Shown here: positions 22,209 to 43,730 of the stretch, piece after piece
Numbering within the stretch: position 1 is the first letter of the stretch
How the letters are laid out: each line of letters starts with the position of its first letter
Origin: an uncultured Elusimicrobiales bacterium
GTDB taxonomy: Bacteria; Elusimicrobiota; Elusimicrobia; Elusimicrobiales; Elusimicrobiaceae
NCBI GenBank assembly: GCA_944324115.1
Contig: CALUVB010000003.1
Coordinates: 1-64,000 of the forward strand
DNA length: 64,000 nt
Direction of reading: 5' to 3'
The notes under the pieces: generated by a model
The model's input: only the letters and a program-made list of their open reading frames with translations
The model's database searches: none
Told to the model about the DNA's origin: nothing
Made by a program: the position numbers and the translations under genes

Positions 22209-23603
22209 ATGAAAAGCAAAAAATACTTTTTGTTATTAATCGGCATTCTGGTATCCGCCGTTTGTACCGGTGCGGAACCGACTGTGGAGCTTGCAGCTTC
22301 CCCTAAAGCAAAAAATATCATTTGGATTATCGGCGATGGTATGGGGCCAGGCGCTATGGGTATGTTTATGCAGGGGGTGCGCTTGACGGATTTGCCGCAA
22401 TATCCGGATAAGCAATCCGTCTTGGAGCGGTTTATTGATGCTTCAGTAAGCGGATTTTATTTTAATCATACCTATAATACAATTGTTACTGATTCAGCCG
22501 GTTCCGCCACACAAATGGCTACAGGGGCCTTATCCCGGCCGGATTATGTGGGTATAGACTATCAAGGAGAAAAAAAAGTCAATCTGTTGGAAGAAGCCTT
22601 GTCCCGGGGTAAATCCGTCGGTGTTATTACGGATTCATATGTAGCAGATGCCACGCCGGCCGGTTTCTTGGCTCATACAAAGAGCCGCAAAGATAAATAT
22701 GAGATCGCCCGTCAAACTGTGCAGGGCGCAGCGCAGGTGGTATTGGGCGGCGGCAAAAAATATTTTGAGGGAAAAGAGAACAAAAAACTGCTTAAAACAG
22801 CCCGCAAAGAAGGTTGGACCGTGGTGGAAAACGCCAAAGAGCTGGCTAAAGTAAAAAAAGGCCGGGTGCTGGGGCTGTTTGCAGAAGAAGCCATGCCTTT
22901 TTATACGGAAATGGACCGCTATGAACAGACCCCTACGCTAAAAGAGATGACGCAGAAAGCGGTGGAGTTGCTGGCGCAAAATGAGAATGGATTCGTGTTG
23001 GTGATAGAAGCCGGCAAAATTGATTGGGCCCTGCATGATCAAGAAGCCGGGCCTGCTATGTGGGAAATGGTAAATCTAGATGAGACGCTGGCCTATGTGT
23101 GGGATTTTGCCCGGCAGCAAGGCAATACGCTGGTTTATTTGAATGCCGATCATGAAACCGGGGTGCCGGTGTTTCATTATCGGCATTTGGATTCAGAGAC
23201 AGTGAAACATAAATCGGCCCAAGGGGAAATGCTTTACAGCGGGAATATGGATTATGTCAATACTCCCTACTATCAGAAAATATTTGACTATAAAGATCTG
23301 CTGTATTATGTGTATCCCAAATTTAAGGCATTGCCTCCGCAGGAACAAACGGCGGAAAAATTGCAGCAAATGGCAGATGAGGCTTTTGGAGGACATATTG
23401 ACCTGCGGTTGGAAGGTCAAGTGCCGGATTATGCCGGTTTAATCGCTAAGCTCAATGAAGCGTTGGGAATGCGTTGGGCTACGGATACCCATTCGTCTGG
23501 TATGTTGCTGGGGGTGGCGTACGGCCCCGGGGCTGACGGGTTTTCCGGAGTGTATCATAATACGGATTTGAAAGGAAAATTTGAAAAAGCCTTGGGCTGG
23601 TAA
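22209..23603 (+). CDS. Exported alkaline phosphatase
   Basis: A 464-residue protein with a signal peptide (cleavage near residue 20) and an alkaline phosphatase core. Metal and catalytic motifs: I-G-D-G-M-G near residue 40, T-D-S-A-G-S-A-T-Q-M-A-T-G with the nucleophile Ser, E-A-G-K-I-D-W-A-L-H-D, N-A-D-H-E-T-G, and a late D-T-H-S-S-G. It hydrolyses phosphate monoesters in the periplasm using two Zn and one Mg. No Pho box or phosphate genes are nearby, and it sits inside a housekeeping run between glgA and ftsX. Confidence 0.9.
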   Translation: MKSKKYFLLLIGILVSAVCTGAEPTVELAASPKAKNIIWIIGDGMGPGAMGMFMQGVRLTDLPQYPDKQSVLERFIDASVSGFYFNHTYNTIVTDSAGSATQMATGALSRPDYVGIDYQGEKKVNLLEEALSRGKSVGVITDSYVADATPAGFLAHTKSRKDKYEIARQTVQGAAQVVLGGGKKYFEGKENKKLLKTARKEGWTVVENAKELAKVKKGRVLGLFAEEAMPFYTEMDRYEQTPTLKEMTQKAVELLAQNENGFVLVIEAGKIDWALHDQEAGPAMWEMVNLDETLAYVWDFARQQGNTLVYLNADHETGVPVFHYRHLDSETVKHKSAQGEMLYSGNMDYVNTPYYQKIFDYKDLLYYVYPKFKALPPQEQTAEKLQQMADEAFGGHIDLRLEGQVPDYAGLIAKLNEALGMRWATDTHSSGMLLGVAYGPGADGFSGVYHNTDLKGKFEKALGW

Positions 23604-27049: not shown

Positions 27050-28072
27050 ATGAAGAAAAATTTTACTATTTTAGGGATAGAAAGCACTTGCGACGAAACA
27101 TCGGCCGCTTTATTGGTTGATGGGAAAAAATTAGTCAGCAATGTCATTTATTCGCAAATAGAAGAACATAAAAAATATCATGGGGTCGTGCCGGAATTGG
27201 CCAGCCGCGCCCATGCGGCCAAAATAGCCACCGTGATAGATGAGGCATTGGGCGGAAGGGATATAGATTGTGTCGCTTTTGCCCGCGGACCCGGGTTGCC
27301 GGGCGGGCTGATGGTAGGGCGGGTGGCGGCGCAAACCCTTGCAAATTTCAAAAAAGTGCCTATACTAGGGGTGAATCACCTAGAAGGGCATCTGTTTGCC
27401 TGTGAATTTGAAGACGGAGAAGTGAAAAATCCATTAACATTTCCGCTGGTGGCATTGGTGGTGTCGGGGGGACACACGGAGCTTTGGCGGGTAAAAAATT
27501 ATGGAGAATATAAAGTGTTAGGCCGCACGCGTGACGATGCCGCCGGAGAAGCATTTGATAAAGTGGCCAAATTGCTGGGGCTTGCTTATCCCGGCGGGCC
27601 GCAAGTATCAGCCCAAGCGCTCCAAGGGCGGCGCGATGCGGTGGATTTTCCGCGTCCTTTATTGCCGGGAACGTGGGATTTTTCGTTTAGTGGAATTAAG
27701 ACGGCAGTGAGTTATTATTTGCGGGATCATCAGACGGTCAGTGTGCCGGATATATGCGCTTCTTTTGAACAGGCCGTGTGTGAAACGCTAGTCAAGAAAA
27801 CGATGCTTGCCGCAGAAAAATATAAGGTAAGACAAGTGGCCGTGGGCGGCGGTGTAGCGGCGAACAGTTTGTTGCGTGAACTGATGACGGAGGAAGGCCG
27901 CAAGCGCGGTATAGAAGTGCGTTTTGTGCCGCGGAAGATGTCTTCTGATAATGCCGCCATGATTGCGCTGGCCGCTTACAAACAGCTGCAGCATGCCGGG
28001 CCGGCGGCTTGGCAAAAAAAGTGGAATATCAATATTAATCCGAATTTGCGGGTGAAAAACTGGGGGAAATAG
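27050..28072 (+). CDS. tsaD: tRNA t6A biosynthesis catalytic subunit TsaD
   Basis: A 340-residue Kae1/TsaD family protein. Seen: G-I-E-S-T-C-D-E-T-S-A at the N-terminus, the metal-binding H-L-E-G-H near residue 110, V-S-G-G-H-T-E, the F-S-F-S-G-I-K-T segment and V-G-G-G-V-A-A-N-S. It transfers the threonylcarbamoyl group to tRNA A37 with TsaB and TsaE, whose genes lie 18 kb upstream. It ends directly against the next gene. Confidence 0.95.
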   Translation: MKKNFTILGIESTCDETSAALLVDGKKLVSNVIYSQIEEHKKYHGVVPELASRAHAAKIATVIDEALGGRDIDCVAFARGPGLPGGLMVGRVAAQTLANFKKVPILGVNHLEGHLFACEFEDGEVKNPLTFPLVALVVSGGHTELWRVKNYGEYKVLGRTRDDAAGEAFDKVAKLLGLAYPGGPQVSAQALQGRRDAVDFPRPLLPGTWDFSFSGIKTAVSYYLRDHQTVSVPDICASFEQAVCETLVKKTMLAAEKYKVRQVAVGGGVAANSLLRELMTEEGRKRGIEVRFVPRKMSSDNAAMIALAAYKQLQHAGPAAWQKKWNININPNLRVKNWGK

Positions 28073-29278
28073 ATGATTTTATGGGTCATGCCGGACTCCG
28101 GTGCGCGTACGAAAGAAGATTACCGGCAGCTGGTGCAACGGTTTAAAGAAGAGAATCCGAAAGCAGACGTAACCGTATATGTGTTTACGCGCAATATTTT
28201 GTGGAAAAAAATCTTTACGCTCAAAAATCCGGCCGCCGGAGAAATTGTGCCGGATTTGATCCAGATTCCGCATTACTGGACTGCACTTTTGACCCGGGCC
28301 GGTGTGGCGGAAAATTTGTCCAAAATGGATCCGGGGCTGTCCCTTTCTTCCGCGCTTTATCCGCTGCGGCCACATTGTTATAAACCAGGAACAAAAGATA
28401 TTTATTCTTATCCGTGGTGGTTTGATATGAGCGCCTTGCATTTGCGCGCAGACCACTTAAAGGCGGTTACCTCAGACCCGGAAAAAGAACTGGCCCAATG
28501 GGAAGGTTTGCTAGACGTGTGTGCCCGGCTTAAAGCGCATTTCAGAGAGGTAGACGGATATTTCCCTATGCAAAACAGCGACTGGCGCGGTTCCCTTTCC
28601 ACCCGCAGCGCCTTTATGGAGATATGGGGCCGCGGCGCGGCGATGTTTACGCCGGATTTGCGCGGCACGCTGATAGGTACTGCGCAGTTTAAAGAAGGGG
28701 TAAAAGATTATATTACTTTAGCGTTGAAAGAATATATGCCTATTTTGCGCGAACGCGGCAGCTTGGGTACAATGCTTTCCGGCAAAGCCAGTATGCTGAT
28801 TTCCCGCAAACAAGGGGTGGCCAGCTTTGAGGGGAAAATGGGGGTGCGCGTCAAAACATTGCCTGTGCCGCGTACCGGGGCGCAGCCGCAGGCCTATTTG
28901 TCTGGTATGAATTTGATGATAAACACTGCGGGCTCGGACAAAGAAACTGCCTTGCGTTTTATCAAATGGTGTGCCCGTACGGATAATCAAATGCAATATG
29001 CCGCCACAATGGAAGTGTTCCCGGCGTTTGAAGAAAGTTTTGAGCAGCTTATTTTTTCATCTTCCCAGCGTTTGCGCACTTATTCGGGCATTTTGGCCTC
29101 GGCGCGTACGCTGCCTAATATGACTATTACCGGTACTGTGGTGGAAATCTTAAATAAAATCCTGGCTGTGAGTGCCACGCAGATTGTAGAAGGGCGTTTT
29201 ACGCAAGCCAGCTTGGATATTGAACTGGATAAGGCGGCCAAAGAAGTGCAGTATTTGCTGTCGCTTTATGAGGGGTAA
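28073..29278 (+). CDS. Solute-binding-protein fold without signal peptide
   Basis: A 401-residue protein resembling ABC sugar-binding proteins (family 1 type): an early strand I-L-W-V-M-P-D-S-G, a lobe with D-L-I-Q-I-P-H-Y-W, aromatic-rich ligand-cleft segments (Y-S-Y-P-W-W-F-D), and a late helix pattern E-T-A-L-R-F-I-K-W typical of these proteins. It has no signal peptide, and none can be added: the codon immediately before the ATG is the in-frame tsaD stop. So the protein should be cytosolic, where a transport role is impossible. It is followed 2 nt later by a GAF-GAF-GGDEF gene, suggesting a ligand-sensing role. No ABC permease is nearby. Confidence 0.75.
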   Translation: MILWVMPDSGARTKEDYRQLVQRFKEENPKADVTVYVFTRNILWKKIFTLKNPAAGEIVPDLIQIPHYWTALLTRAGVAENLSKMDPGLSLSSALYPLRPHCYKPGTKDIYSYPWWFDMSALHLRADHLKAVTSDPEKELAQWEGLLDVCARLKAHFREVDGYFPMQNSDWRGSLSTRSAFMEIWGRGAAMFTPDLRGTLIGTAQFKEGVKDYITLALKEYMPILRERGSLGTMLSGKASMLISRKQGVASFEGKMGVRVKTLPVPRTGAQPQAYLSGMNLMINTAGSDKETALRFIKWCARTDNQMQYAATMEVFPAFEESFEQLIFSSSQRLRTYSGILASARTLPNMTITGTVVEILNKILAVSATQIVEGRFTQASLDIELDKAAKEVQYLLSLYEG

Positions 29279-29280
29279 TT

Positions 29281-30780
29281 ATGTTTGACAGAGAAGCGTT
29301 TACTCTTTTTAAATTTGGCAAAAAATTAAACCAGTCTTTCCAAAACCGCCGCGAATTGCTGGATTGTGCGTTGCCGGCCCTGCGGGATTTGTTTAAGCTG
29401 GACCGGGTGTATTTTTTTGACTGGCAGCAGGAACGGGCATTGCTTTCGCTGAAGATGATGTGCAAAAAAGAATATTGCATGGATATGCAGGAAGATATAT
29501 CCGTGCTTAATGAGCCCGAATTTTTGAAGAAGCTGCTGCAAGACGGAATTGCCGATTCTACGGATTTAAATTATCCGGCCGTATATGTACTGCTCAAATG
29601 GAAACGCCCCGCCATGACATTAGAAGGGGAAGACGTTCATACGGTGATTAAAGAAAGTGTGGGCGTGCTGCGTTTGGAGCGCTTCCGCAAGAACCGTGTG
29701 TTTCATGACGCGGAAAAGCGAATGATTAAATCGGTGGCGGAGGAAATTTCACATAATTTAACTAATACGGAAATTGACCAAGCCAAAAATCAGCGCCTTA
29801 ATATTGCTACGGCTCTTAATGATTTGGCCACTATTTTTGCATCTTCTTTGCGCTTGTCAGACGGATTGGAATTGATTTTGCAAGGCGTGCAGAAATATTT
29901 TCGCTTTGACCGGGTGCGTTTGTATCAAACCACTTATGACGGCGGAAGAATAAAAACCATTTTGGGGGTGGATATTTCCGGGGAAGTAACCCGGCAGAAC
30001 GGAGACGATCTGCCGGAAGATGAACGTACCCTTCTGCGGGATATTTTTGATTCGGGCGCCACTTACCGCACCATACACAATGTAGTCTATATTCCGCTGA
30101 AAGTGCAACGCAACAAGGTGGGATTTTTGACCTTTGACAATTTGCTTTCGCGCCGGCGTATTAATTATTTGGATTTCGTTTCTTTGAAACAGTTTTCCAC
30201 TCAAATTGCTCTGGCTATAGATAATGCCGCCTTGTTTGAAAGAGTGCAGGAATTGTCTAATTATGATGAGTTGACTAAGCTGCCGGTGCGGCGTTTCTTC
30301 AATGAGAAATTTTCCGACGAGATTTATCGTTCCAAACGTTTTGACTTGGTGATGTCGGTAATTTTGTTGGATATTGATTTGTTTAAGCAAATAAACGATA
30401 CCTACGGCCACCAAATAGGAGATTGGGCTTTGAAAGAAGTCAGCCGGGTGATTCGCACCAGCTTGCGCCAGACGGATTTTCCATGCCGTTATGGCGGAGA
30501 CGAAATGGTAATTATGCTGCCGCGTACAAACGGAGAAGAAGCTAAAATTATCGCCAAACGTCTTAAAGACCGTATTGGCGCTATTGCCATACCGGACCGT
30601 TACACCGATGGGGAACGCGTCACGCTGAGCATCAGCCAGGGAATTTCCGTTTTTCCGCAAGACGGCCAAACGGCGGCGGAACTTTTTGAAAAAGCCGATA
30701 AAGCGCTTTATTGGGTTAAAGACGGGCGCCGCGGTACATTTGCGGTGTACCGGGAAGTGGCGGACCAATTGCCTCAGTGA
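29281..30780 (+). CDS. Double-GAF diguanylate cyclase
   Basis: A 499-residue soluble protein: GAF-like domain 1 (about residues 15-160), GAF-like domain 2 (about 170-315) and a GGDEF domain (about 330-495). The active loop is G405-G-D-E-M409, with Met in the last position rather than the usual Phe. The inhibitory I-site R396-Q-T-D399 is intact, five residues before the loop, so product feedback is likely. Other core features (D-I-D-L-F-K-Q-I-N-D-T-Y-G-H) are normal, so cyclic di-GMP synthesis is expected. It is coupled to the solute-binding-like gene. It lies just upstream of the surface-protein and Tad pilus loci. Confidence 0.88.
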   Translation: MFDREAFTLFKFGKKLNQSFQNRRELLDCALPALRDLFKLDRVYFFDWQQERALLSLKMMCKKEYCMDMQEDISVLNEPEFLKKLLQDGIADSTDLNYPAVYVLLKWKRPAMTLEGEDVHTVIKESVGVLRLERFRKNRVFHDAEKRMIKSVAEEISHNLTNTEIDQAKNQRLNIATALNDLATIFASSLRLSDGLELILQGVQKYFRFDRVRLYQTTYDGGRIKTILGVDISGEVTRQNGDDLPEDERTLLRDIFDSGATYRTIHNVVYIPLKVQRNKVGFLTFDNLLSRRRINYLDFVSLKQFSTQIALAIDNAALFERVQELSNYDELTKLPVRRFFNEKFSDEIYRSKRFDLVMSVILLDIDLFKQINDTYGHQIGDWALKEVSRVIRTSLRQTDFPCRYGGDEMVIMLPRTNGEEAKIIAKRLKDRIGAIAIPDRYTDGERVTLSISQGISVFPQDGQTAAELFEKADKALYWVKDGRRGTFAVYREVADQLPQ

Positions 30781-31275: not shown

Positions 31276-34200
31276 ATGACATGTAAAAATTTCTGGAAAA
31301 AGTTTGCTGGCAAAATGGCCGTAGCGGCTGTTTTGCCTCTGTTGTGTTTAGCTGCGGCTGTGCCTGCTTTTGCTCAGACGGCCGAAATCCGCTCTACCGG
31401 CGTGTATTATATTGACGGCCAATATCTGCCTGCTGTCACTGCGGCGACCGGTTCTACATTGCAAGCGACGGATATTAACAGCATTTATTGTAACTGGGGC
31501 GCAGATAATATTAAAGCTGCGGAGAATTATTATGCCTACAAAGGCGGAACGGTAAACGTTGATGGCATGAATACCAGTGATCCGTGGCAAACTTCGGCGC
31601 TGATTGAATATGATCAGCCGTATCCTAGCCCGAATATAGACAACAGTTATCCCAACCATTGTTTGGCTTTGTGTATGGACGTATACTGCACCAATAAACC
31701 CAATGGCGCCACCACCTATTCTATAGCTTTCCCAATACAGAGCATTATGTTTGAAATTGCGAAATATCGCAACGGGGCGGATATTTCCAATGCGGAGACA
31801 AACCCTGCCATACGTACAATTTTTCAGAGTATATTGGACAATAATATTGAAGACGAAGGCAGCGCTTCCACAGGGTCGTCTTCTCAGGATTTGGCCAAAT
31901 ATATGTGCGCTTCTTACAGCTGTTTGGGCGCTACCAGCAATCCGGAAAACTCTTGTACCTGCCCTAACCCGGAATATGAGTGTATATATGCGAAAGACTT
32001 GGATACTAAACCTTGTGAATATCTCGAAGACAACTATTGCTGTCGTTCTTTGACGAACCCACAGGGGAATGGGAGCGTTTCTTCCGGGATTGAAACCTAT
32101 ACTTTTACCACTTCTGTATGTAACGGCGCATATGAGGCGGGAAAAGGCAACTGCGGCAGCAACTCCGATGGTGTGAATTTTGGCGGTGAGACGAATTGTA
32201 TCGTGCGGGCAGAGGGCACCGGCCGCGGGTATAATGACCCAATCCGTTTTTGCACGTCTTGGGACGGATCATATGAAATCTTGGGTGAATTTGGCAAAAC
32301 GAACGGCCAATTCGGTTTCCGTGCTACCATTAAGACGGAATATCCCGGAGACGGCATTGCCATAGAAAATATTTCCATTGACCAAACTTATCCTTACCCG
32401 GGCAATAACCAATATCCTATTCAAGTAGACGTGAGCAATGTGCATACTGTGCGCAGTACGCCTTCTGTGGTGGGATCTATTACCTCGGTGCAGGCCCTGC
32501 CTTATTCACTGGCATATCGCTTGAGCAAAGATTCTGATGTGTTAATTCAACTTTTTGATGCCTCGGCCCAAGTGCCCGTGACTAATCAAGGTTCCGGTAA
32601 TATGACCAACAGTGACGCGGAACTTGTATTGGAACAGAATGCCGTTGTCCGTACGCTGGTCAATTGGGAGGGACGTTTAGGAGAAGGCTTGCAAGGTTCC
32701 ACCTCCGATAAGGCAGTTGTGGAGTCCGACTCTTGGGACGGCCGCGACGATTCCGGCCGCTTGTTGCCTGCCAATAACTATTTAGTATCCATTCAAGCCA
32801 AAAGCCAAGATGAGTGGCCAGGAACAGACTTCTCCCGTGCGGTTACGCGCCAGCTGTCTGTAGACCCGTTGAAATTGACGGATATTGAAGTACAGGGATT
32901 AAATAAACAGTCCACTGCCTATGCCACGGTCCGTTATGTTCCTACGGAATCTTCCACTGTTTATTTTGAAGTTTATTCGCCGGGAACTACCTTTGAAGGT
33001 TTGGAACCGTTGGGATACCAGCCGACGGGTACTTCCCCTGTGATCTCCAACAACAGCGGCACTTTGGTGTATCGGAGCCAGCAGCAGCGCGGCCGCAGCC
33101 AGAGCTATCCGGATAAATGGGACGGCTTGTGCCATAATGACAACAACTGCGCTGTTCCGTATGCCGTGGGTTCTAAGCTTCCTATTTCCGGAGATATACT
33201 GACGGCGGATAATGGCGCCACCGTTTGTACCACGGCCAATCAAAACGGCGCCGCCGCAGCTTGGGACGCCGCCACAAACGTATGTACCATTACCTACGCC
33301 AATGGTTCTCCTTTGCCTGACGGGGATTATATTTACGTGCTGTGGGCGGAAGTGCCTTATACGGATTTGTATTTTAATGGAGCTGCCTGCTACCAGTGCG
33401 AACTCAATGGCCAACATATGCCTGCCGGCTGCGGTATTACTTGGAATAATGACTTTAGCATATTCACTTGTGAAACAGGGACTGCAAGTCTTTCTTCTTC
33501 TTCTGTAGCCGCTGTGTTAAGCGGTACATTTACCGGCGTAAAAACTCAAAAATACTATACGGGTATTTTGCCGGTGGAACGCGGCGTGGTGGATATTACC
33601 ATACAGCCCGTCAGCTATTCCACTATCGGTTCCAGTCCGACGGCGTATGGCTTGGACCCGTTTATTTTCAAATATTCCGTCGCGCGTGAAGCTACAGTAG
33701 AGGCGGAAGTACAGAATACGGCCGGCGTAACCGTAAAGACCTTGACAGATGAAGGCGGCAATACCAATGTGGCCCAGCAGATGAATACGTTGAGCTGGGA
33801 CGGCCGCGACGATCAAGGCCGCATCGTTGGCCCTGGTACATATATGTTTGTGGTCAAGACGAAAGACCCCATGTTCCCGGAAAGCATACAGACTACAGCT
33901 TCTGCCATCTTCCCGGTGGACTTGTACCGCGTGGTTGACGTAAGCACGACAGATGTGTATGGCGATAGCGGAGCCAAAGCTACTATTAACTATACGCTTT
34001 CTAAAGCCATGAACGTGCAAATCAATATATATAATAAAGATGTGGTAATCCCGCTTTATACTGATACCGGAGAATCTACGGTTGAGACGTTTACCACTGT
34101 CCCCGCCGGTTTAATAACGGCACTGGGTGTCATGTCTACTAATCCTCTGCCTAATTTGGTGGCGGGCAGTGCGGTGCCTGTAGCAGTAGCCGGAGCCCCG

Positions 34201-36258
34201 TTAGTAGAGGGAGATGTGGTCGGATATTCCTATATATATACGGAACCGGTATTGGCGGGAGGAAATACTTCTTATACCTATTATCGCGTCAAAAAACAAG
34301 TGACCGCGCTCACCGCTACGACTGAAGATTACACTGTGCTTGAAGTGTTGCAATATACAGTACCGGTGACCTCTTGGCCGCCGCGCGTGTGCGACCAAGA
34401 TACCGATGCGGCTGTCTTTACCAACGGATATGTGGATCCGGCAAAGAATCCGCAGTGTATCTATGTCAATGACACCACCTTTACCAACTATCCGGCCAAT
34501 GCGGAAACGGCCAAATATAATTACGCCGAAGGCGCTACACAAACTTTAGATGTGCGCCTGCAGCCGGTCAAAACATTTAATCGTTCTTCCCTTAAAGCCG
34601 GAGAAGGCGTATCTCAGACAGAAGAATGGGACGCGCAGTATTTCTATAATCCGACCCCGGTCTCTACGCTTGACGGCGGGAAGAATACGCCTGAAGCGGT
34701 AGAGGCGTGCGCCGGTCAGACGGATAAAACGGCCTGCCCGTATGAAATGATACCTGACGGCACATATCCGTTCTATATCTCGGCCCAAACGGAAGAACCG
34801 GTGAACCTGTATTATGATTCCGCTACGGCCCAGCCGGTGCGTACTGCGGCAGACGTGACGGCGCAAACGGGTTTGTATGCTACGGACAAGGCCACCTATC
34901 GCGTCAATATTACGCGCGGCCCGGTGTATTTCTTAGACGGCTCTGTGGCGGTGTATCCCAATGCGCCGCAGCTGTTTAATACTTCTTCCGGCCCGGTGTT
35001 TGTGCCGCCGTATGAGATTAACTTTGCCATATCCCGCGCCGCGACAGTAGAAGTGGCCATTGTAGCCTTGGAAGACGGATTATGCACTTCTACGGATACG
35101 CCGGCTGTAACAGGCGATCCAAATGTGCAGATGGCCCGCGCCGGCGACGTGTGCAAATATTTAAGCACGATGACTATTGTCAATACGCCGAATTTTGATC
35201 CCAATGTAATCCGCAAATTGTATTGGGACGGTACGGATAACAACGGCTATTATGTGCGCAACGGAAACTATGAAATCCGCTTGACCGCCAAGAATTATCC
35301 CGATGAAGGTCTGTATGAGCCGACAGTCAAACAACTGACGCAAAATGTGGATCTGCTCAAAGTGTTTGACTTGCCGGAAACGGAGGCCTATGCGCTTAAT
35401 AAACGCGGTACGAATATGAGCATTTCGTATCAGATTTCCGTGCCGATGAAAGTGGCCATACAAATCTTCAAACCGGGCACTACGATTTACGATTATCAAA
35501 AAGGTACCTTGCGTGATCCGGCTACGGGCAAAGAAGTGACCGACATACATGACGTGTTAGTCAGAGCGATTGTGGGCATCCGCCCGGCTACGACGTTGAT
35601 TGAAGAAATTTGGGACGGTACCGACTATGCCCAGCAAGATGTACCTGACGGCACCTATCCGTTCCGTTTTGTGACGGCATTGCAGTCAGCCAATATTGAC
35701 TCTATTACGGGTGAAATATTGAATTCTGACGACCAAAGCGCCGATCCGACGCAGTGGAGCATTGAAAAGGTGGCCGATACCAACCAGTATGTCAACCTGC
35801 ACCGTGCCACAGTGGCTATCGGTGACGGAGAATTTGTCTGCGAAGATTGGGAGAAGACGGTGTTCTTCTATCCGAACCCGTTCAAAACGCCTACAGGCAC
35901 GATGGAAATTACCAAACTGCCTGTTCCGGGAAAGATGTCGTTTAAACTCTATAACTTGGCGGGCGATTTGGTGCGCGAAAGCGGTTATACCTGCGTAGAT
36001 GCCAATAATATGAGTGTGGTGATGGGCAGCTCTATTGACTTGAGTCCGGACAACAATGTCAGCACGACAGTGTATGACCCCACTGTGCCGGGTAATATGC
36101 CCAATGTGCGCAATGCGGCCCTGCGCTGCTTCTGGGACCGCACCAACCAGCACGGCAAAAAAGTCGCCCGCGGCGTGTATTTCGGCCTGGTGGATTTCCG
36201 GGCCCAAAACGGCAGACAGCATTGCCAAAAAGTAGTCAAAATCTTAATACCCAGGTAA
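31276..36258 (+). CDS. Giant Cys-rich surface protein with FlgD-Ig modules and sorting-like C-terminus
   Basis: A 1660-residue exported protein: signal peptide to about residue 34 (P-A-F-A), then a Cys-dense region (residues 60-320; for example C-T-C-P near 235), then repeated FlgD-type Ig modules. The module hallmark W-D-G-x-D followed by G-x-Y recurs near residues 487, 840, 1315 and 1444, with looser copies near 613, 1116 and 1618. The C-terminal 110 residues start with F-F-Y-P-N-P-F and end with a G-V-Y-F strand and K-V-V-K-I-L-I-P-R, as in FlgD_Ig and type IX secretion type-A sorting domains. The next gene encodes a PorV/PorQ-like barrel. It is probably a cell-surface adhesin or appendage protein; the export route is inference. 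Confidence 0.8.
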   Translation: MTCKNFWKKFAGKMAVAAVLPLLCLAAAVPAFAQTAEIRSTGVYYIDGQYLPAVTAATGSTLQATDINSIYCNWGADNIKAAENYYAYKGGTVNVDGMNTSDPWQTSALIEYDQPYPSPNIDNSYPNHCLALCMDVYCTNKPNGATTYSIAFPIQSIMFEIAKYRNGADISNAETNPAIRTIFQSILDNNIEDEGSASTGSSSQDLAKYMCASYSCLGATSNPENSCTCPNPEYECIYAKDLDTKPCEYLEDNYCCRSLTNPQGNGSVSSGIETYTFTTSVCNGAYEAGKGNCGSNSDGVNFGGETNCIVRAEGTGRGYNDPIRFCTSWDGSYEILGEFGKTNGQFGFRATIKTEYPGDGIAIENISIDQTYPYPGNNQYPIQVDVSNVHTVRSTPSVVGSITSVQALPYSLAYRLSKDSDVLIQLFDASAQVPVTNQGSGNMTNSDAELVLEQNAVVRTLVNWEGRLGEGLQGSTSDKAVVESDSWDGRDDSGRLLPANNYLVSIQAKSQDEWPGTDFSRAVTRQLSVDPLKLTDIEVQGLNKQSTAYATVRYVPTESSTVYFEVYSPGTTFEGLEPLGYQPTGTSPVISNNSGTLVYRSQQQRGRSQSYPDKWDGLCHNDNNCAVPYAVGSKLPISGDILTADNGATVCTTANQNGAAAAWDAATNVCTITYANGSPLPDGDYIYVLWAEVPYTDLYFNGAACYQCELNGQHMPAGCGITWNNDFSIFTCETGTASLSSSSVAAVLSGTFTGVKTQKYYTGILPVERGVVDITIQPVSYSTIGSSPTAYGLDPFIFKYSVAREATVEAEVQNTAGVTVKTLTDEGGNTNVAQQMNTLSWDGRDDQGRIVGPGTYMFVVKTKDPMFPESIQTTASAIFPVDLYRVVDVSTTDVYGDSGAKATINYTLSKAMNVQINIYNKDVVIPLYTDTGESTVETFTTVPAGLITALGVMSTNPLPNLVAGSAVPVAVAGAPLVEGDVVGYSYIYTEPVLAGGNTSYTYYRVKKQVTALTATTEDYTVLEVLQYTVPVTSWPPRVCDQDTDAAVFTNGYVDPAKNPQCIYVNDTTFTNYPANAETAKYNYAEGATQTLDVRLQPVKTFNRSSLKAGEGVSQTEEWDAQYFYNPTPVSTLDGGKNTPEAVEACAGQTDKTACPYEMIPDGTYPFYISAQTEEPVNLYYDSATAQPVRTAADVTAQTGLYATDKATYRVNITRGPVYFLDGSVAVYPNAPQLFNTSSGPVFVPPYEINFAISRAATVEVAIVALEDGLCTSTDTPAVTGDPNVQMARAGDVCKYLSTMTIVNTPNFDPNVIRKLYWDGTDNNGYYVRNGNYEIRLTAKNYPDEGLYEPTVKQLTQNVDLLKVFDLPETEAYALNKRGTNMSISYQISVPMKVAIQIFKPGTTIYDYQKGTLRDPATGKEVTDIHDVLVRAIVGIRPATTLIEEIWDGTDYAQQDVPDGTYPFRFVTALQSANIDSITGEILNSDDQSADPTQWSIEKVADTNQYVNLHRATVAIGDGEFVCEDWEKTVFFYPNPFKTPTGTMEITKLPVPGKMSFKLYNLAGDLVRESGYTCVDANNMSVVMGSSIDLSPDNNVSTTVYDPTVPGNMPNVRNAALRCFWDRTNQHGKKVARGVYFGLVDFRAQNGRQHCQKVVKILIPR

Positions 36259-37743: not shown

Positions 37744-38232
37744 ATGAAACTCTTTCGTAGGAAGCGTGAGGGGCAGGTAACGGTAGAATTGATGCTTATT
37801 CTGCCGGTGCTGATGTTAATGATATTCTTTGTGCTGGAATATGGGAATATTGCCTATCACACGATTATTGCCAACCATGCTTCCTATGAATTTGCCCGTA
37901 TTGGGGCGCTGGTAGGTGCGAATAAGCCCAGCGGCCGCGCCAATACAGGCACGATGAGAAACAAAATAAACATAGCCAAACAGAAAGTGTTTGGCGCCAA
38001 TGCGCAGTTTATTAATGTGGCCGTAAAAGTACAGGCCACCGGTACGGATCCTATGTACCAACGCCATCGCCATGAAGATGTGATTGTGACGGTGACTTAT
38101 CCTATACGCTTGGCTTTTCCGGGAACGAGCTGGTTACTGGCAGATGAGCCTAAGCGTAATGGTATACGGCGTATTAAAGCTGTAACCCGTATGCCGATAG
38201 AAAAGACATACGCCAGCTCGGATACGAAATAA
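37744..38232 (+). CDS. tadE: TadE-like pseudopilin
   Basis: A 162-residue protein with the leader R-K-R-E-G, cleavage before Q-V-T-V-E-L and one membrane helix, then F-V-L-E-Y-G-N typical of TadE. The remaining 120 residues form a basic extracytoplasmic domain. TadE-type minor pilins are processed by the Flp prepilin peptidase and help assemble the pilus. It follows flp by 26 nt. Confidence 0.85.
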   Translation: MKLFRRKREGQVTVELMLILPVLMLMIFFVLEYGNIAYHTIIANHASYEFARIGALVGANKPSGRANTGTMRNKINIAKQKVFGANAQFINVAVKVQATGTDPMYQRHRHEDVIVTVTYPIRLAFPGTSWLLADEPKRNGIRRIKAVTRMPIEKTYASSDTK

Positions 38233-38289
38233 GAGCGGCTGAAAAATTTTGGTTTTTAATTTACCGGGATGTAAAATTGAGGAGAAACA

Positions 38290-39048
38290 ATGAAAAAAGG
38301 AATAATGCTTCCATTGGTATTGGCGGTATTGGCAGCGCTGGTATATGCGATGATTGTCAATAGTGCCCAAAAAAAACTGACTGCTTCCCAAAGCATGAAA
38401 ACGGTGCTCGTGCCTATTCGTGACATCAAAGAGCGCGAGGTAATAAAACGTGATTATTTGAAAAAAGTGAATGTGCCCGCCGCGTATGTGCAGAAAGATG
38501 CTTTTACCTGGACAACCGATGCGGACTTTGCCAATATTGAAAATTCCATTGCGCGTATTCAGATAGCCAAAGGAAACCAAATTTCTAAGTATGCCGTTAC
38601 CTCTCTTTCTCCGGAGGCCGGCCTCTCCAGCAAAATCCCGGTGCAGATGAGAGGCTATGTTATTGATGTGCCGACTAATGTGGCCAGCTTGATAAAGCCT
38701 GACGATAATATTGATATTTTGGTTACTTTTGAAGCGATTATGAAAAATGGCTCTCGCCAGAAAGTAACCATCACCTTGCTGCAGAATGTTAAAGTGTTGG
38801 GCGTGGGGTCCAATTTGGGACAAGGCTTAGACGCCAAAACGGCCGCCGCGATGCGTAATGAAGAAGAAGATGCCAACGCCTATACAGATACTGGCTCTTT
38901 GAGCTTGGCGCTTCCTCCGCGTGATGCGCAGTATTTGGCGCTGGCGCAGAATCAAGACGGCAGCGAAATCTCCGTTGTCTTGCGCTCACAGGGCGATGTG
39001 AACCAATACGTTATGGAAATTGCCACTTTTGATAAATTATTTCAATAA
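38290..39048 (+). CDS. cpaB: Flp pilus assembly protein CpaB/RcpC
   Basis: A 252-residue protein with an N-terminal membrane helix (about residues 5-23) and an SAF-like domain (T-V-L-V-P-I-R-D-I-K-E-R-E-V-I, then A-Y-V-Q-K-D-A-F), followed by an RcpC-type domain with V-P-T-N-V-A-S-L-I-K-P-D-D-N-I-D-I-L-V-T-F. CpaB lies in the periplasm with the secretin. GAGGAG precedes the ATG. Length is typical. Confidence 0.88.
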   Translation: MKKGIMLPLVLAVLAALVYAMIVNSAQKKLTASQSMKTVLVPIRDIKEREVIKRDYLKKVNVPAAYVQKDAFTWTTDADFANIENSIARIQIAKGNQISKYAVTSLSPEAGLSSKIPVQMRGYVIDVPTNVASLIKPDDNIDILVTFEAIMKNGSRQKVTITLLQNVKVLGVGSNLGQGLDAKTAAAMRNEEEDANAYTDTGSLSLALPPRDAQYLALAQNQDGSEISVVLRSQGDVNQYVMEIATFDKLFQ

Positions 39049-39066
39049 ACAGGAACGATAAAACTT

Positions 39067-39801
39067 ATGAAATTTACTTCTAAAATTACACTGTTTGTTT
39101 TGCTGTTGGCTTTGGCTGCGCCGGCTGCGTTTGCCAAGAAAACGCGTTTGGTGGCGGTCAGCGCTGATGTGGTGGAAATCAGCGGTTCTATGAACTCTGC
39201 AAAAGGGTTTGAGTGGAACCAAATTTTTGACTTTGAGGAAGCCAATATCCCCGGTATTTTATCGTTAGGGGAATTTGAGCGTAAAACGGCTGTTATTACG
39301 CGTTTGCGTCTGTCTGAAACAGAAGGGCGCGCTCAAGTGCTTTCCAACCCAAAAATTGTTACCAGTTCCGGCAACAGCGCTAAAATCACCGTCGGCGGTA
39401 AGGTGCCTATACCGGTGGTAAACAACCAGGGGGTTGGCTCCCAACTGGAAGAATATGGTATTTTGCTCAATGTGTTGCCCACCATTATTCCGGAAAGAGG
39501 CAATATTATTGACTTGCAGGTGCAGTTGTCCATGTCATCGGTGGACTATTCCCGCACCGTATCGGTGGGTACGTCTACGGCGCCTTCTTTTACTAACCGC
39601 GAAGTAGAAACCCATGTGGAACTCAACAGCGGGGAAACTTTGGTAATCGGCGGTTTAAAAAGCAGCTCCCGCAACGTGAGCGAAACGCGCGTGCCTTTCT
39701 TGGGCCGTATTCCGCTGATTGGTCTTTTGTTCAAATATAAAGATGTGTCCGAAGAGCAACGCTCGCTCTTCTTGTTTATTACTGTAGAAGTGGTGGAATA
39801 A
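39067..39801 (+). CDS. Short secretin (CpaC/RcpA-like), secretin core only
   Basis: A 244-residue exported protein (signal peptide to about residue 23). Nearly the whole mature part is the secretin beta-domain: V-L-S-N-P-K-I-V-T near residue 93, V-G-G-K-V-P-I-P-V-V, G-I-L-L-N-V-L-P-T-I, E-V-E-T-H-V-E-L-N-S-G-E-T-L-V-I-G-G-L and P-F-L-G-R-I-P-L-I-G-L-L-F. The periplasmic N0/BON domains that make CpaC about 450-500 residues are missing. It should form the outer-membrane channel of the pilus, but how it contacts inner-membrane parts is unclear; the extended TadB or CpaB might fill that role. Confidence 0.85.
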   Translation: MKFTSKITLFVLLLALAAPAAFAKKTRLVAVSADVVEISGSMNSAKGFEWNQIFDFEEANIPGILSLGEFERKTAVITRLRLSETEGRAQVLSNPKIVTSSGNSAKITVGGKVPIPVVNNQGVGSQLEEYGILLNVLPTIIPERGNIIDLQVQLSMSSVDYSRTVSVGTSTAPSFTNREVETHVELNSGETLVIGGLKSSSRNVSETRVPFLGRIPLIGLLFKYKDVSEEQRSLFLFITVEVVE

Positions 39802-39807
39802 TAACTT

Positions 39808-42090
39808 ATGGCAGAAATGCAATCTCCTAAGAATGAAGCCAAGATTATCGCTTTAAACAGCCCCAAAGAAGGCGCTGGAAAAACAACGCTGACGCTGAAT
39901 TTGGCTTTAGGCTGGGCAGGTATACAAAAGCGGCCCGTGTTAATTGTGCCGCTGGATCCGCTGGCCCGCCAAGAACACAGCTTTTATTTGGATATTAAAA
40001 AACCAGTCAGTGTGGCGGATATTTTACGCACGCTGGGCAACGCCAATATAGCAGTGGTGGGGGGATTGCTGCGCGGGAAAGTGTCTATGTCTCAGTGGGG
40101 GGTAGGTGTGCTGCCGCTGGGTAATACGCGTGCGCAGGTGGCTTCTATCAGCCCTAAAATTTTGATTCCTATTTTATCCCGTTTATCTCAGACGTTTGAT
40201 ATCTTTTTAGATGTGGATTCTTCTTTTCCGATGCAGGCATTTTCATTTGATATCGCCGATAAGATTTTCTGGGTATCCAATGCCACGCGCACTCATTTAA
40301 ATTCCACAGTGCAGCTTTTTAATGATTACAAAGAACAACGTTACCCGATGGAACGGGTAAGCGTTATTTGCAATCAATATGATATGCCCGGCTCCATTCC
40401 TTATGAAGAGGTGGAACGGTTCTATAACTCTTTAGGGCGTGATATAGACGTGTTCCTGCCGTGGGACGAAGGCATTATGGCGGCGTCTAACCGCAAAGAA
40501 GTGGAAATTATTTCCAATCCGCAATCAGAGTGGATTAAAGGGTTGCGTTTGGTGTTGGCTAAAATACGTGATTTAACCCCGGCGCCAAAGGATTGGACCG
40601 CTTCTGTCACAGATGAGGAGTTTACCCAAGCAGCCAAAGAAATATGGAGTCCCATCATGGCAGCCCCCGGAGCCGGCGGGCCGGTGGAGAGCCATGTGGC
40701 TATAGAGGAGGAAGGAGAAGGCAGCAAAACCAAGCTTTCCTTTTGGGACGATTTGAAACAAAAAATCCACAAAGAAGTGGTGCGCACGCTGGAAATAGAA
40801 CGCATTGTAATTAGTGATGAAAGCACCGCCAGCGCCCAAACGCGCAAGCGGGTGTCTGCCATTGTAGACGATATTCTGCAGAAACAGCCTAATTTGCAGT
40901 TTTCGCGTGATCAGCGTACCCGGTTTGCTTCCGAATTATTAGATGAAATTTTAGGTTTGGGGCCGCTGGAAACGTTGATGAGAGATCCCAGCGTAACAGA
41001 AATCATGGTCAATGCCTTTGATAAGATTTTTATTGAGCAAAAAGGTAAATTGACCTTGACCAAATATAAATTTAGAAATAATGAACAGGTGGTGCAGGTA
41101 ATTAAACGCATTGTGTCTCCGCTTGGGCGCCGTATTGACGAATCGGTGCCGTTGGTTGACGCGCGTTTGAAAGACGGTTCCCGTGTGAACGCCATTATTG
41201 CGCCGCTGGCCGTTTCGGGGCCGACGTTGACTATACGCCGTTTCTCACAGAAACCGTTCGGCCCGGAAGATTATTTCCGCTTTGGCACGATTAGCCCGGA
41301 ATGTATGGAATTTCTGGAGAAATGTGTGCGTATCCGGAAAAATATTATTGTCTGCGGCGGTACCGGTACTGGTAAAACTACATTTTTAAACGCATTGTCC
41401 GGATATATTGCCGATGACGAACGCATCATTACTGTAGAAGATACGGCTGAGCTTCGCTTGCAGCAGCCGCACTGGGTGTCTTTGGAAAGCCGCCCGCCCA
41501 ACGTGGAAGGAAAAGGGCAAATTTCTATTCAAGACTTGGTAAAAAACTGCTTGCGTATGCGTCCGGACCGCATTGTGGTGGGGGAATGCCGCGGCGCCGA
41601 AGCGTTAGACATGTTGCAGGCTATGAATACCGGTCATGAAGGATCTTTGACTACTATTCACGCCAATACGCCACGTGACGGGCTGTCCCGTCTGGAAGCT
41701 ATGTGTATGCAGGCCAGCGCGGACTTGCCCATTTTCGCTATTCGTGAAATGATTTCATCGGCTGTAAACATGATTGTGCAGCTGTCGCGTTTTTCCGACG
41801 GGTCCAGAAAAGTAACCTATATTACGGAAATGCACGGCCAAAAAAATAACGAGATACAATCTACCGACCTTTTCCGCTATGTCCAAACGGGCGTAGATGA
41901 AAACGGGAAGGTGAAAGGCATTTTCGCACCGACGGGGAATTTGCCCACGTTTTTTAGAGATTTCCAAGCGAAAGGGGTGCCAGTTTCAGAAGAAATCTTT
42001 ACGAAAGGAGCCGTTCGGTTAGATGAAAATGGCGAGCCGGATTTGTCTTCTATGATTCAGCCGCCGCAGCCACCGGCTAAACCGCAATAA
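39808..42090 (+). CDS. TadZ-TadA fusion: ParA-like ATPase joined to CpaF-type secretion ATPase
   Basis: A 760-residue cytosolic protein. Residues 1 to about 270 are a ParA/MinD-type domain (CpaE/TadZ), with Walker A K20-E-G-A-G-K25-T. Residues from about 310 are a CpaF/TadA ATPase, with L-G-L-G-P-L-E-T-L, Walker A G517-G-T-G-T-G-K523-T, a Walker B-like D-R-I-V-V-G-E-C-R-G and the His-box T-T-I-H-A-N-T. In classical Tad loci these are separate proteins that localise (TadZ) and power (TadA) the pilus. A continuous frame with no internal stop shows a true fusion. The linker (about 275-310) is Glu/Lys-rich. Confidence 0.9.
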   Translation: MAEMQSPKNEAKIIALNSPKEGAGKTTLTLNLALGWAGIQKRPVLIVPLDPLARQEHSFYLDIKKPVSVADILRTLGNANIAVVGGLLRGKVSMSQWGVGVLPLGNTRAQVASISPKILIPILSRLSQTFDIFLDVDSSFPMQAFSFDIADKIFWVSNATRTHLNSTVQLFNDYKEQRYPMERVSVICNQYDMPGSIPYEEVERFYNSLGRDIDVFLPWDEGIMAASNRKEVEIISNPQSEWIKGLRLVLAKIRDLTPAPKDWTASVTDEEFTQAAKEIWSPIMAAPGAGGPVESHVAIEEEGEGSKTKLSFWDDLKQKIHKEVVRTLEIERIVISDESTASAQTRKRVSAIVDDILQKQPNLQFSRDQRTRFASELLDEILGLGPLETLMRDPSVTEIMVNAFDKIFIEQKGKLTLTKYKFRNNEQVVQVIKRIVSPLGRRIDESVPLVDARLKDGSRVNAIIAPLAVSGPTLTIRRFSQKPFGPEDYFRFGTISPECMEFLEKCVRIRKNIIVCGGTGTGKTTFLNALSGYIADDERIITVEDTAELRLQQPHWVSLESRPPNVEGKGQISIQDLVKNCLRMRPDRIVVGECRGAEALDMLQAMNTGHEGSLTTIHANTPRDGLSRLEAMCMQASADLPIFAIREMISSAVNMIVQLSRFSDGSRKVTYITEMHGQKNNEIQSTDLFRYVQTGVDENGKVKGIFAPTGNLPTFFRDFQAKGVPVSEEIFTKGAVRLDENGEPDLSSMIQPPQPPAKPQ

Positions 42091-42101
42091 AACGGTAAAT
42101 T

Positions 42102-43730
42102 ATGATGAAGAAAACTGCATGGTTCGTTTTATTAGTTACGTTGTTGCTCGGGGTGGTGACGCCGCGGGGACTTTTGGCGCGCGCCTTAGATAATAAAGAC
42201 CGACAAAAAATTCGTTGTGCCATGTTCAAGATGGAAGTGTTGGGAAATTATTTTAATGTCAATAGACCCGACTCCCAGAAAGAGTTCGAATATCCCGCCG
42301 CTTGTGGAGAATCGTTGGCAGGCAAGAAAGTCACAATGCCTAAATGGTTCCCGGAAGAATTGAAACGCATGGACTCCGTCAAAGTCGTATATATTGAAGG
42401 GGAAGGCACATTAAGCGAAGCGACATTATGGTATCGTACATTTTCCAACGTGTATTCTTTCTTAGCCCGGGCGAATGATTCTTTGGATCGGAGCAAACCT
42501 GTTGTGTTGGAACAGCTTTCCCGCGGATATGTGGGCAACCGCATTAGTTTTGTGGCTAATTTAGACCGCTTAAATAAAGAGTTGGTACGTGGGCGGGAAG
42601 TAATCAGCTTAAAGGACAGTATGGAAGGGCGTGCGCGGGCTTTGTTAGCCACGATGGAAGTTATCAACCGGGAGTTTTACAGTACCATAGAATCGTTTAC
42701 CAGCCCAGCCGCTCAAAAGGAAAACAAATACCGCCAGTCTGTTATGGCGGTGGTGACGTTGGCCAATCAGCTGTGGAGTGAGTTCCGTTCTTCTCCTATT
42801 CCTATGGATCCGCCCGACCCCAAGACCTTTTTGGTGACGGAAGGGGAAAGACTGTTTAATGCATTGCTGCTGGTGATAGGTTCTTTATTGGTGGCGTATG
42901 CGGTGTATTTGCTGTTAGAAAACAAAAAAGAATTTATTTTAGAGAAATGGGACGATTATCGGGCCAAAAGTGTCGCCTGGGCCGAAGATTTTAACCGCCA
43001 GTTTTTGACCATTGATGTTCGCTATATTGTGTTTGGTACGGTGGGCGTTTTTGCCTTATTTGGCCTATTGATGGGGATTTCCAGCGGCGGGTTTGGCGGG
43101 GTATTTGTCTTTTTGCTGTTTGTGGCGTTGGGCGCGGTGGTGTCGGTGCGTATACCGCCTATTGTGCTGGATAAACTCAAAAAGAGCCGGGGGCGCAAGA
43201 TTAATGCCCAGCTGATGGATTCGCTGATTTTGCTTTCTAACTCGCTCCGTTCCGGCATGGATATTGTGCAGGGGTTTGAGTTGGTTGCGCATGATATGCA
43301 GCCGCCGATTGCCGATGAATTTGGCTTGGTAATTAAAAATTACCGTTTAGGCACTCCGTTTGAAAAAGCCTTGGAAGGATTAGATGACCGGGTGGAAAGC
43401 CGCATGCTTTCCTATACGATTAAAGCGATTATAATCCAGCGTCAGGTGGGTGGTAATTTGACGGTTATTTTCTCGCGCTTGGTAGAAAATATCCGCGAGG
43501 AGAGTAAACTGGAAGAAAAATTAGACGCGATGACCGCCCAGCAGAAAATACAAGCAATGGTAGTGGGGATAATGCCTGTTATCATGTTGGGAGTTATGTT
43601 TATGTTCCGCCCCGATGAAATGATTGCTTTCTATACTACATTAGTAGGATTGATAGTACTGTTTGGTTGTTTCTGCTGGATTATGATTGGTATGATGCTG
43701 ATACAAAAATTGGGAGAAGTCAAGGTATAA
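42102..43730 (+). CDS. tadB: TadB-like inner-membrane protein with large periplasmic extension
   Basis: A 542-residue protein. A signal peptide or anchor (about residues 5-25) is followed by a roughly 230-residue mainly helical region without membrane segments, then a helix near 262-280, two more near 315-360, and the T2SF/GspF domain (S-L-R-S-G-M-D-I-V-Q-G-F, R-Q-V-G-G-N-L, and two C-terminal helices). Ordinary TadB proteins are about 300 residues and lack the exported N-terminal part. TadB and TadC form the platform that couples the ATPase to pilin extrusion. The ATGATG start has a weak ribosome site. Confidence 0.85.
   Translation: MMKKTAWFVLLVTLLLGVVTPRGLLARALDNKDRQKIRCAMFKMEVLGNYFNVNRPDSQKEFEYPAACGESLAGKKVTMPKWFPEELKRMDSVKVVYIEGEGTLSEATLWYRTFSNVYSFLARANDSLDRSKPVVLEQLSRGYVGNRISFVANLDRLNKELVRGREVISLKDSMEGRARALLATMEVINREFYSTIESFTSPAAQKENKYRQSVMAVVTLANQLWSEFRSSPIPMDPPDPKTFLVTEGERLFNALLLVIGSLLVAYAVYLLLENKKEFILEKWDDYRAKSVAWAEDFNRQFLTIDVRYIVFGTVGVFALFGLLMGISSGGFGGVFVFLLFVALGAVVSVRIPPIVLDKLKKSRGRKINAQLMDSLILLSNSLRSGMDIVQGFELVAHDMQPPIADEFGLVIKNYRLGTPFEKALEGLDDRVESRMLSYTIKAIIIQRQVGGNLTVIFSRLVENIREESKLEEKLDAMTAQQKIQAMVVGIMPVIMLGVMFMFRPDEMIAFYTTLVGLIVLFGCFCWIMIGMMLIQKLGEVKV

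Follow-up and report, generated by a model that had tools for sequence, protein, structure and literature searches.

A solute-binding protein gene without a leader precedes a diguanylate cyclase gene

We analysed a stretch of 64,000 nucleotides (the window) from an uncultured Elusimicrobiales bacterium (contig CALUVB010000003.1 of assembly GCA_944324115.1, positions 1 to 64,000 of the forward strand), which carries adjoining genes for a predicted cytosolic solute-binding protein (SBP) and a predicted diguanylate cyclase (DGC). These two genes and the gene upstream of them are laid out as follows.

28073..29278 (TAA stop), + strand: SBP, leaderless and predicted cytosolic, 401 amino acids (aa), SBP_bac_8/1, beta-glucoside/cellodextrin-binding fold
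29281..30780, + strand: DGC, predicted soluble GAF-GAF-GGDEF protein, 499 aa
27050..28072, + strand: context gene with a TAG stop at 28070-28072, which we take to be tsaD (t6A enzyme)

The ATG of the SBP gene at 28073 lies in the tsaD frame (the two starts are 1023 nt apart) and abuts the tsaD TAG. Therefore, an in-frame start further upstream is impossible without reading through a stop codon. Only two nucleotides, TT, separate the SBP gene from the ATG of the DGC gene, and across the window's genus this spacing is 2 to 4 nt. An initial annotation of this DNA had placed the SBP start at the first beta strand, behind the in-frame tsaD stop and with no signal peptide, and the cyclase gene 2 nt after the SBP gene; the reading frames and the coordinates (29278/29281) agree with this description.

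We found the SBP in 98 of the 101 genomes that comprise the window's own and its close relatives. In the relatives, the initiating Met stands directly at the first strand, with x-W at positions 3-4, and the upstream space mostly amounts to a few codons. The same leaderless start is repeated in other families, in other classes and in named metagenome-assembled genomes (MAGs). At several loci a frame of up to 70 codons is open 5' of the SBP start, and it lacks a hydrophobic start. Locus L066, where TTG codons 12 and 6 codons before the ATG accompany a short hydrophobic run, is ambiguous; L209 has an in-frame hydrophobic stretch upstream, but its first start codon (GTG) comes only after this stretch.

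The SBP has the sequence and fold of a sugar-binding protein

Pfam matches the window SBP to SBP_bac_8 (E=5.5e-18) and SBP_bac_1 (1e-8) over residues 14-323, and no NCBIfam equivalog scored above its cut-off. The closest solved sequences are the Thermus thermophilus beta-glycoside-binding protein (7c6f, E=1.5e-26) and Clostridium thermocellum CbpB (7x0i, 4e-17). An AlphaFold model built from 14 sequences (pLDDT 90.2, pTM 0.88) could be superposed on CbpB (7x0l; Z 42.5, rmsd 2.9, 383 aligned residues) and on the T. thermophilus protein (7c69; Z 41.9, rmsd 2.8, 384 aligned residues). Residue 1 of the model falls opposite residue 4 of 7c69 in its mature form and opposite CbpB residue 52, and thus the window SBP begins where the mature forms of exported proteins begin. 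Among the features that mark the extracytoplasmic sugar SBP of a CUT1-type ABC importer, it has the SBP_bac_1/8 sequence and the predicted two-lobe fold; a signal peptide or lipobox is absent from it and from its leaderless relatives, as read from the frames.

Leaderless SBPs are paired with the cyclase in many lineages

To assess pairing, we searched 145 loci with a profile for the SBP and a profile for the DGC. The set does not include L091-L126, which are repeats or came from family searches, nor L069, L070, L145 and L166, and at least five loci are entered in it twice (L134/L169, L136/L167, L137/L172, L139/L179 and L141/L170). At 135 of the 145 loci, a leaderless SBP was adjoined by a DGC on the same strand. 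The others were five leaderless SBPs at a contig edge (L038, L044, L141, L144 and L170) and five signal-peptide SBPs without a DGC (L146, L182, L184, L185 and L183, the last at a contig edge). Every leaderless SBP with enough downstream sequence is paired, and later loci (L199, L207, L208, L209 and L223) were again leaderless with a DGC present. The leaderless start and the pairing are not chance: they are repeated in every testable leaderless locus.

A second count was made over the phylum, in 294 genomes each for the SBP (E<=2e-20) and for the GAF-GAF part of the cyclase (E<=1e-25). The SBP was found in 138 genomes, leaving aside matches weaker than E 2e-20 and two SBP-permease chains of 778 aa, those of genomes G176 and G265; the GAF-GAF part was found in 142, and both in 137. 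In the sole SBP-only genome (G014), the contig ends after the first 47 residues of the DGC (L027). Five genomes had only the DGC: in G287 the contig ends 25 bases past the DGC match, at the expected SBP start, G151 has a partial, unrelated match to the DGC profile, and G147, G214 and G229 (family f5) carry a very divergent leaderless SBP directly upstream of the DGC. The cyclase search thus pointed to SBPs that had escaped the search with the SBP profile or had scored only weakly in it. These f5 proteins (L207 1957-3297, L208 1110-2423 and L209 1175-2467) are extremely divergent and were recognised via the cyclase. Co-occurrence across genomes, which the initial annotation had put forward as a check, proved very tight in both counts. 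Comparison of these sequences supports the SBP-DGC pairing well, and on these loci the adjacency is obligate for the leaderless type.

The pair is spread across Elusimicrobiota. When named genomes were scanned, 19 loci were obtained, 15 of them leaderless (L167-L181), with labels, as recorded for the MAGs, of Elusimicrobia/Endomicrobiales/Ca. Obscuribacterium, Ca. Auribacterota, UBP3, Ca. Omnitrophota and Caldiserica; 14 of the 15 have the DGC, and L170 ends at a contig edge. Three further groups contained the leaderless type in 2/7, 5/44 and 2/16 genomes, again with the DGC. The sizes of these groups suggest that the current GTDB places the Omnitrophota-labelled record in a separate, small phylum.

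In most Elusimicrobiota loci, tsaD homologues lie 5' of the pair, a conservation extending beyond the two genes that could mean that two unrelated housekeeping-like genes adjoin each other, and tsaD, through frozen gene order. We consider this explanation very unlikely, since the pair is kept where tsaD is not a neighbour (for example in L171, L173, L177 and L180) and remains intact beside chorismate synthase, ScpA, MnmE or sugar importer genes, and since SBP and DGC are lost jointly. The distances between orthologues also argue against it. The 101 loci at which TsaD, SBP and DGC are all complete were thinned to 61; among these, SBP and DGC distances were correlated with r 0.92, and the partial correlation given the TsaD of the same locus was 0.78, a value reached in 0 of 2000 permutations. 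By comparison, the partial correlation of SBP with TsaD was 0.52 when DGC was taken into account, and that of DGC with TsaD was 0.02 when SBP was. Because the distances are simple corrected identities, this covariation beyond TsaD is supportive of co-inheritance, not decisive.

Secreted homologues lack the cyclase and no sugar importer was found in the source genome

Orthologues of the leaderless SBP with a signal peptide were not found; homologues with a signal peptide form a separate branch without DGC. In a tree of 53 rows, the 12 secreted SBPs make up one side of a 100/100 branch. This split fits a single change of cellular location, without proving one, as the tree is unrooted. Twelve secreted SBPs or longer secreted chains (L200-L203, L216-L221, L224 and L225; L226 repeats L202) had no DGC in the DNA scanned. 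Open reading frames (ORFs) of 728-838 aa (L202, L069, L070, L145, L216-L221, L224 and L225; L218 has 577 aa) were considered as natural SBP-GGDEF fusions and rejected: in L202, read from end to end, a secreted SBP continues into a permease, and the other long ORFs look alike at the N-terminus, the part compared. These chains (L202 2038-4221, also L069, L070, L145, L216-L221, L224 and L225), which come from several phyla, may be single-chain binding-protein/permease importers.

The source genome, which is 96% complete, contains only two PF00528 permease genes. These adjoin each other, with an oligopeptide-type ATPase gene upstream, and presumably form an Opp/Dpp-like operon; a sugar-type permease was not found in this assembly. 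This removes, for the window, the main rival of the initial annotation, namely an ABC permease partner encoded elsewhere. At L172 and L179, which represent two other families, the pair stands behind a sugar-type ABC importer that has its own lipoprotein SBP, an arrangement that fits a sensor of incoming substrate. Taken alone, the same position could suggest that the leaderless SBP leaves the cell by some route that needs no signal and supplies the importer. We regard this as extremely unlikely: the importer at L172 and L179 is already supplied with its own SBP, the source genome has the Opp/Dpp-like permease pair only, the partner cyclase is predicted to be soluble, and ordinary secreted relatives of the same fold retain their signal peptides. 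An origin of the leaderless SBP by local duplication of the L172/L179 importer SBP was rejected: in the tree, that importer SBP is not a sister of the leaderless type but stands at a great distance from it, with a very long branch.

The initial annotation had named signal peptides in orthologues and a permease partner as observations that would speak against a cytosolic sensor, and the searches above turned up neither. By its predicted fold the window protein is an SBP, and two defining features of importer SBPs, a leader and a cognate sugar-type permease pair in the assembly, were not found.

The partner is a predicted soluble diguanylate cyclase with an intact active site

Three domains can be delimited in the DGC.

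29308..29730, + strand: first GAF domain, approximate limits, from the secondary structure of an orthologue model mapped via alignment; no Pfam match
29863..30219, + strand: second GAF domain (PF01590), from Pfam
30259..30732, + strand: GGDEF domain, motif GGDEM, metal/GTP residues and RxxD I-site kept

Pfam recognises the GGDEF domain (1e-42) and only the second GAF domain (residues 195-313, 1.2e-5). The double-GAF architecture claimed by the initial annotation therefore holds on the orthologue model and the alignment, but Pfam alone finds one GAF. In the model of an orthologous SBP-DGC pair read through as one chain, we could distinguish the SBP, a GAF domain, a 46-residue helix, a second GAF domain, a helix and the GGDEF domain, each mostly well predicted. 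The Foldseek list for this fused model includes GAF-type cyclases (5llw) among lower-ranking matches, and its VIA list covers residues 1-410. The DGC translation, read by eye, showed no hydrophobic span, and the orthologue model has the order GAF-helix-GAF-helix-GGDEF.

Residues D364, D366, F368, K369, N372, D373, G405, G406, E408, R396 and D399 are invariant in 14 of 14 aligned DGCs (the window's and those of named MAGs), and comprise GGDEF active-site, metal and RxxD I-site residues. On this alignment the active site is intact, and the protein is predicted to be a diguanylate cyclase. Three other GGDEF matches occur in the source genome, of which two read ADIF/ADVF and one GGDDF by eye; within the 96%-complete assembly, the full motif is thus confined to the window cyclase. 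These other GGDEF proteins, at L192, L193 and L194 (source-genome contigs C22 and C13), have degenerate motifs by eye, and two of them look membrane GGDEF-EAL-like and one receiver-GGDEF-like.

The direction of control is unreadable from sequence, and the arrow could in principle be reversed, with the SBP as the target: it would bind or buffer an internal sugar and be acted on by the cyclase or by cyclic di-GMP. Such an arrangement seems highly improbable, as no enzymatic output of an SBP is known and the intact GGDEF active site and I-site fit the cyclase as the output.

The core of the predicted ligand pocket is kept, and one sugar-contact position mostly differs

The following positions of the SBP were mapped by alignment to 7c63 or read from its C-terminus.

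28190..28192, + strand: R40, the W41 position of the T. thermophilus beta-glycoside-binding protein
28277..28279, + strand: W69, the W67 position, mutated by the depositors of 7c6z
28424..28426, + strand: D118, the E117 position, mutated in 7c71
29243..29269, + strand: C-terminal motif E391-V-Q-Y-L-L-S-L-Y399 in the last helix, a proposed docking tail

Residues were counted over 132 leaderless SBPs (128 full-length ones plus L199 and L207-L209). Position 69 is Trp in 131 of them, and position 118 is Asp in 81 and Glu in 43 (124 together); P114 (131/132), R125 (129/132) and W115 (127/132) are kept at other pocket positions. At position 40, Arg (102) and Lys (4) together account for 106 proteins and Trp for 14; the Trp type belongs to lineages that fall outside the window's order and the families closest to it. 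Two of the four positions mutated by the depositors are thus kept (W67, and E117 as Asp or Glu), W41 is mostly Arg or Lys, and W177 is without a confident alignment. Aligned in this way, the pocket core is conserved in leaderless SBPs, and the prevalence of Arg or Lys at the W41 position means that these proteins may have another ligand or none. The substitution hints at a changed, perhaps charged ligand. Gene neighbours were also considered as a guide to the ligand; they are mixed (sugar importer, MFS sugar transporter, chorismate synthase, ScpA, MnmE and carbohydrate-binding proteins) and point to no single pathway.

Loss of the W41 position in most members would also suit a ligand-free pseudo-SBP that stabilises the cyclase, places it or locks its state, leaving the sensing to the GAF domains. 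The DGC indeed carries GAF sensors of its own, and the f5 SBPs are so divergent that they were recognised through the DGC. We nevertheless think a pseudo-SBP unlikely, because the two-lobe fold and W69, P114, R125 and D/E118 are kept over large evolutionary distances and because the model matches ligand-bound sugar SBPs over almost its whole length.

At the C-terminus, the strict motif E-x-x-Y-[LI]-[LM]-S-[LI]-Y is present within the last 16 residues of 94 of the 128 full-length leaderless SBPs, and E391 is conserved in 92% of the 132. The strict motif also ends 98 of 1010 ORFs longer than 250 aa, a rough control, since this count includes the SBPs themselves. The last helix may serve as a docking tail for the cyclase.

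A cytosolic Venus-flytrap protein as a proposed sensory subunit of the cyclase

We consider it probable that the SBP acts as a cytosolic Venus-flytrap protein that senses an internal sugar and controls the soluble GAF-GAF-GGDEF cyclase, with the ligand (a sugar by family), the contact and the direction of control as the presumptive parts of this proposal. A sugar-type SBP would have lost its signal peptide and become the cytosolic ligand-binding subunit of a soluble cyclase. Its two lobes would close on an intracellular sugar-like ligand, and the SBP, probably via its conserved C-terminal helix, would then make direct contact with the cyclase dimer and change its N-terminal part, which holds the GAF domain and the long helix. 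This change would raise or lower cyclic di-GMP.

Several points weigh against this proposal. It is drawn from sequence comparison and structure models; leaderless status was judged by reading frames alone, and few secreted SBPs serve as controls (4 whose flanks are complete, plus SBP-permease chains). The W41 sugar-contact position is Arg or Lys in 106/132 SBPs, and the two GAF domains of the DGC may be the real sensors. The AlphaFold model of the orthologous read-through fusion reached a pTM of 0.51 and gave no confident arrangement, and a natural SBP-GGDEF fusion was not seen among the long ORFs checked, of which only L202 was read to the end.

If the proposal is true, a whole SBP lineage of transport origin has become a metabolite sensor that works inside the cell, as a separate sensory partner of a second-messenger enzyme, and many uncultured phyla would have such a sensor; the setting of cyclic di-GMP by an internal sugar would be directly testable with two soluble proteins. 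More tentatively, and with considerable doubt, we can extend it to a previously unrecognised, ancient and phylum-spanning class of cyclic di-GMP input in which the flytrap moved into the cytosol once and became an obligate separate subunit of the cyclase. The Elusimicrobiota pocket, with Trp changed to Arg or Lys at the W41 position, would read a charged, perhaps phosphorylated, sugar. As the sole full-motif cyclase in reduced gut-type genomes, the enzyme would let carbon status set the main supply of cyclic di-GMP, and with it pilus and surface functions.

Neighbouring genes and possible outputs

Downstream of the pair, the window contains surface and pilus genes, whose proximity the initial annotation had rightly pointed out.

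31276..36258, + strand: FlgD_ig protein, 1660 aa, a possible regulated surface gene (context only)

Many related loci likewise have a homologue of this FlgD_ig protein downstream of the pair, and further along the window, at 37744-43727, lies a cluster of Tad pilus genes. The FlgD_ig surface protein and the Tad cluster may be outputs of the pair, which would link it to pili or surface proteins; the source genome also encodes one PilZ protein and one MshEN protein as possible cyclic di-GMP outputs. Between 24000 and 31500, promoter-like sites (10, versus 10.9 in shuffles) showed no excess and terminator-like sites numbered 13 versus 10.4 in shuffles; neither was used.

Within the Tad cluster, a 760-aa ORF (39808-42087) has a MinD/ParA-like domain (CbiA, 5.6e-8) before a T2SSE ATPase (8.9e-62) and resembles CpaE and TadA in one chain. 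An alkaline phosphatase (PF00245, 1.2e-64) is encoded at 22209-23600, a few genes upstream of the pair. In L180, a receiver-plus-FlgD_ig protein (362-1687) lies upstream of the pair.

Comparison with known systems

The window SBP shares its fold, its sequence and the W67 and E117 equivalents with two exported importer SBPs, CbpB (7x0i-n) and the T. thermophilus beta-glycoside-binding protein (7c63-7c71). It differs from them in having no signal peptide and no sugar importer found in the source genome, in the Arg or Lys that most leaderless SBPs have at the W41 position, and in its cyclase partner. CbpB is reported to bind cellodextrins, its hinge moving by about 17 degrees (PMC9601137).

In NspS-MbaA of Vibrio cholerae and Sinorhizobium meliloti, the SBP-like NspS controls a cyclic di-GMP enzyme (PMC8967002, PMC8079147, PMC5646818 and PMC9993111). 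The likeness to the window pair lies in a free SBP-type protein as the ligand-binding partner of a cyclic di-GMP enzyme. However, NspS is periplasmic and senses outside polyamines, whereas the window SBP is leaderless, sugar-type and, like its cyclase, predicted to be cytosolic. MbaA is a membrane GGDEF-EAL protein, and the window enzyme is a soluble GAF-GAF-GGDEF protein in which no membrane-spanning part was seen. With neither a periplasmic SBP nor a membrane partner predicted, the window pair is not a member of the NspS-MbaA type.

RmcA (SBP_bac_3) and CdgH (PBPb) couple a Venus-flytrap input to a GGDEF output, as is proposed for the pair, but their flytraps are periplasmic domains of one membrane protein, unlike the separate SBP of the window. 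In the literature, CdgH is listed with its PBPb domain (PMC5431781) and solute-binding proteins are placed in the extracytosolic space (PMC9602780). PMC8846402 treats PBP-clan domains as periplasmic, with only SBP_bac_3 studied in cyclic di-GMP networks, and mentions LacI-family regulators. A paper on such a leaderless SBP-cyclase pair was not found in the open-licence PMC literature, which is weak evidence. LacI-family regulators combine a cytosolic PBP-like domain and a DNA-binding domain in one chain. Flytrap sensing inside the cell is thus common to the LacI family and to the proposal made here, but there it is joined in a single chain to a DNA-binding output, whereas here a separate sugar-type SBP would act on a cyclase.

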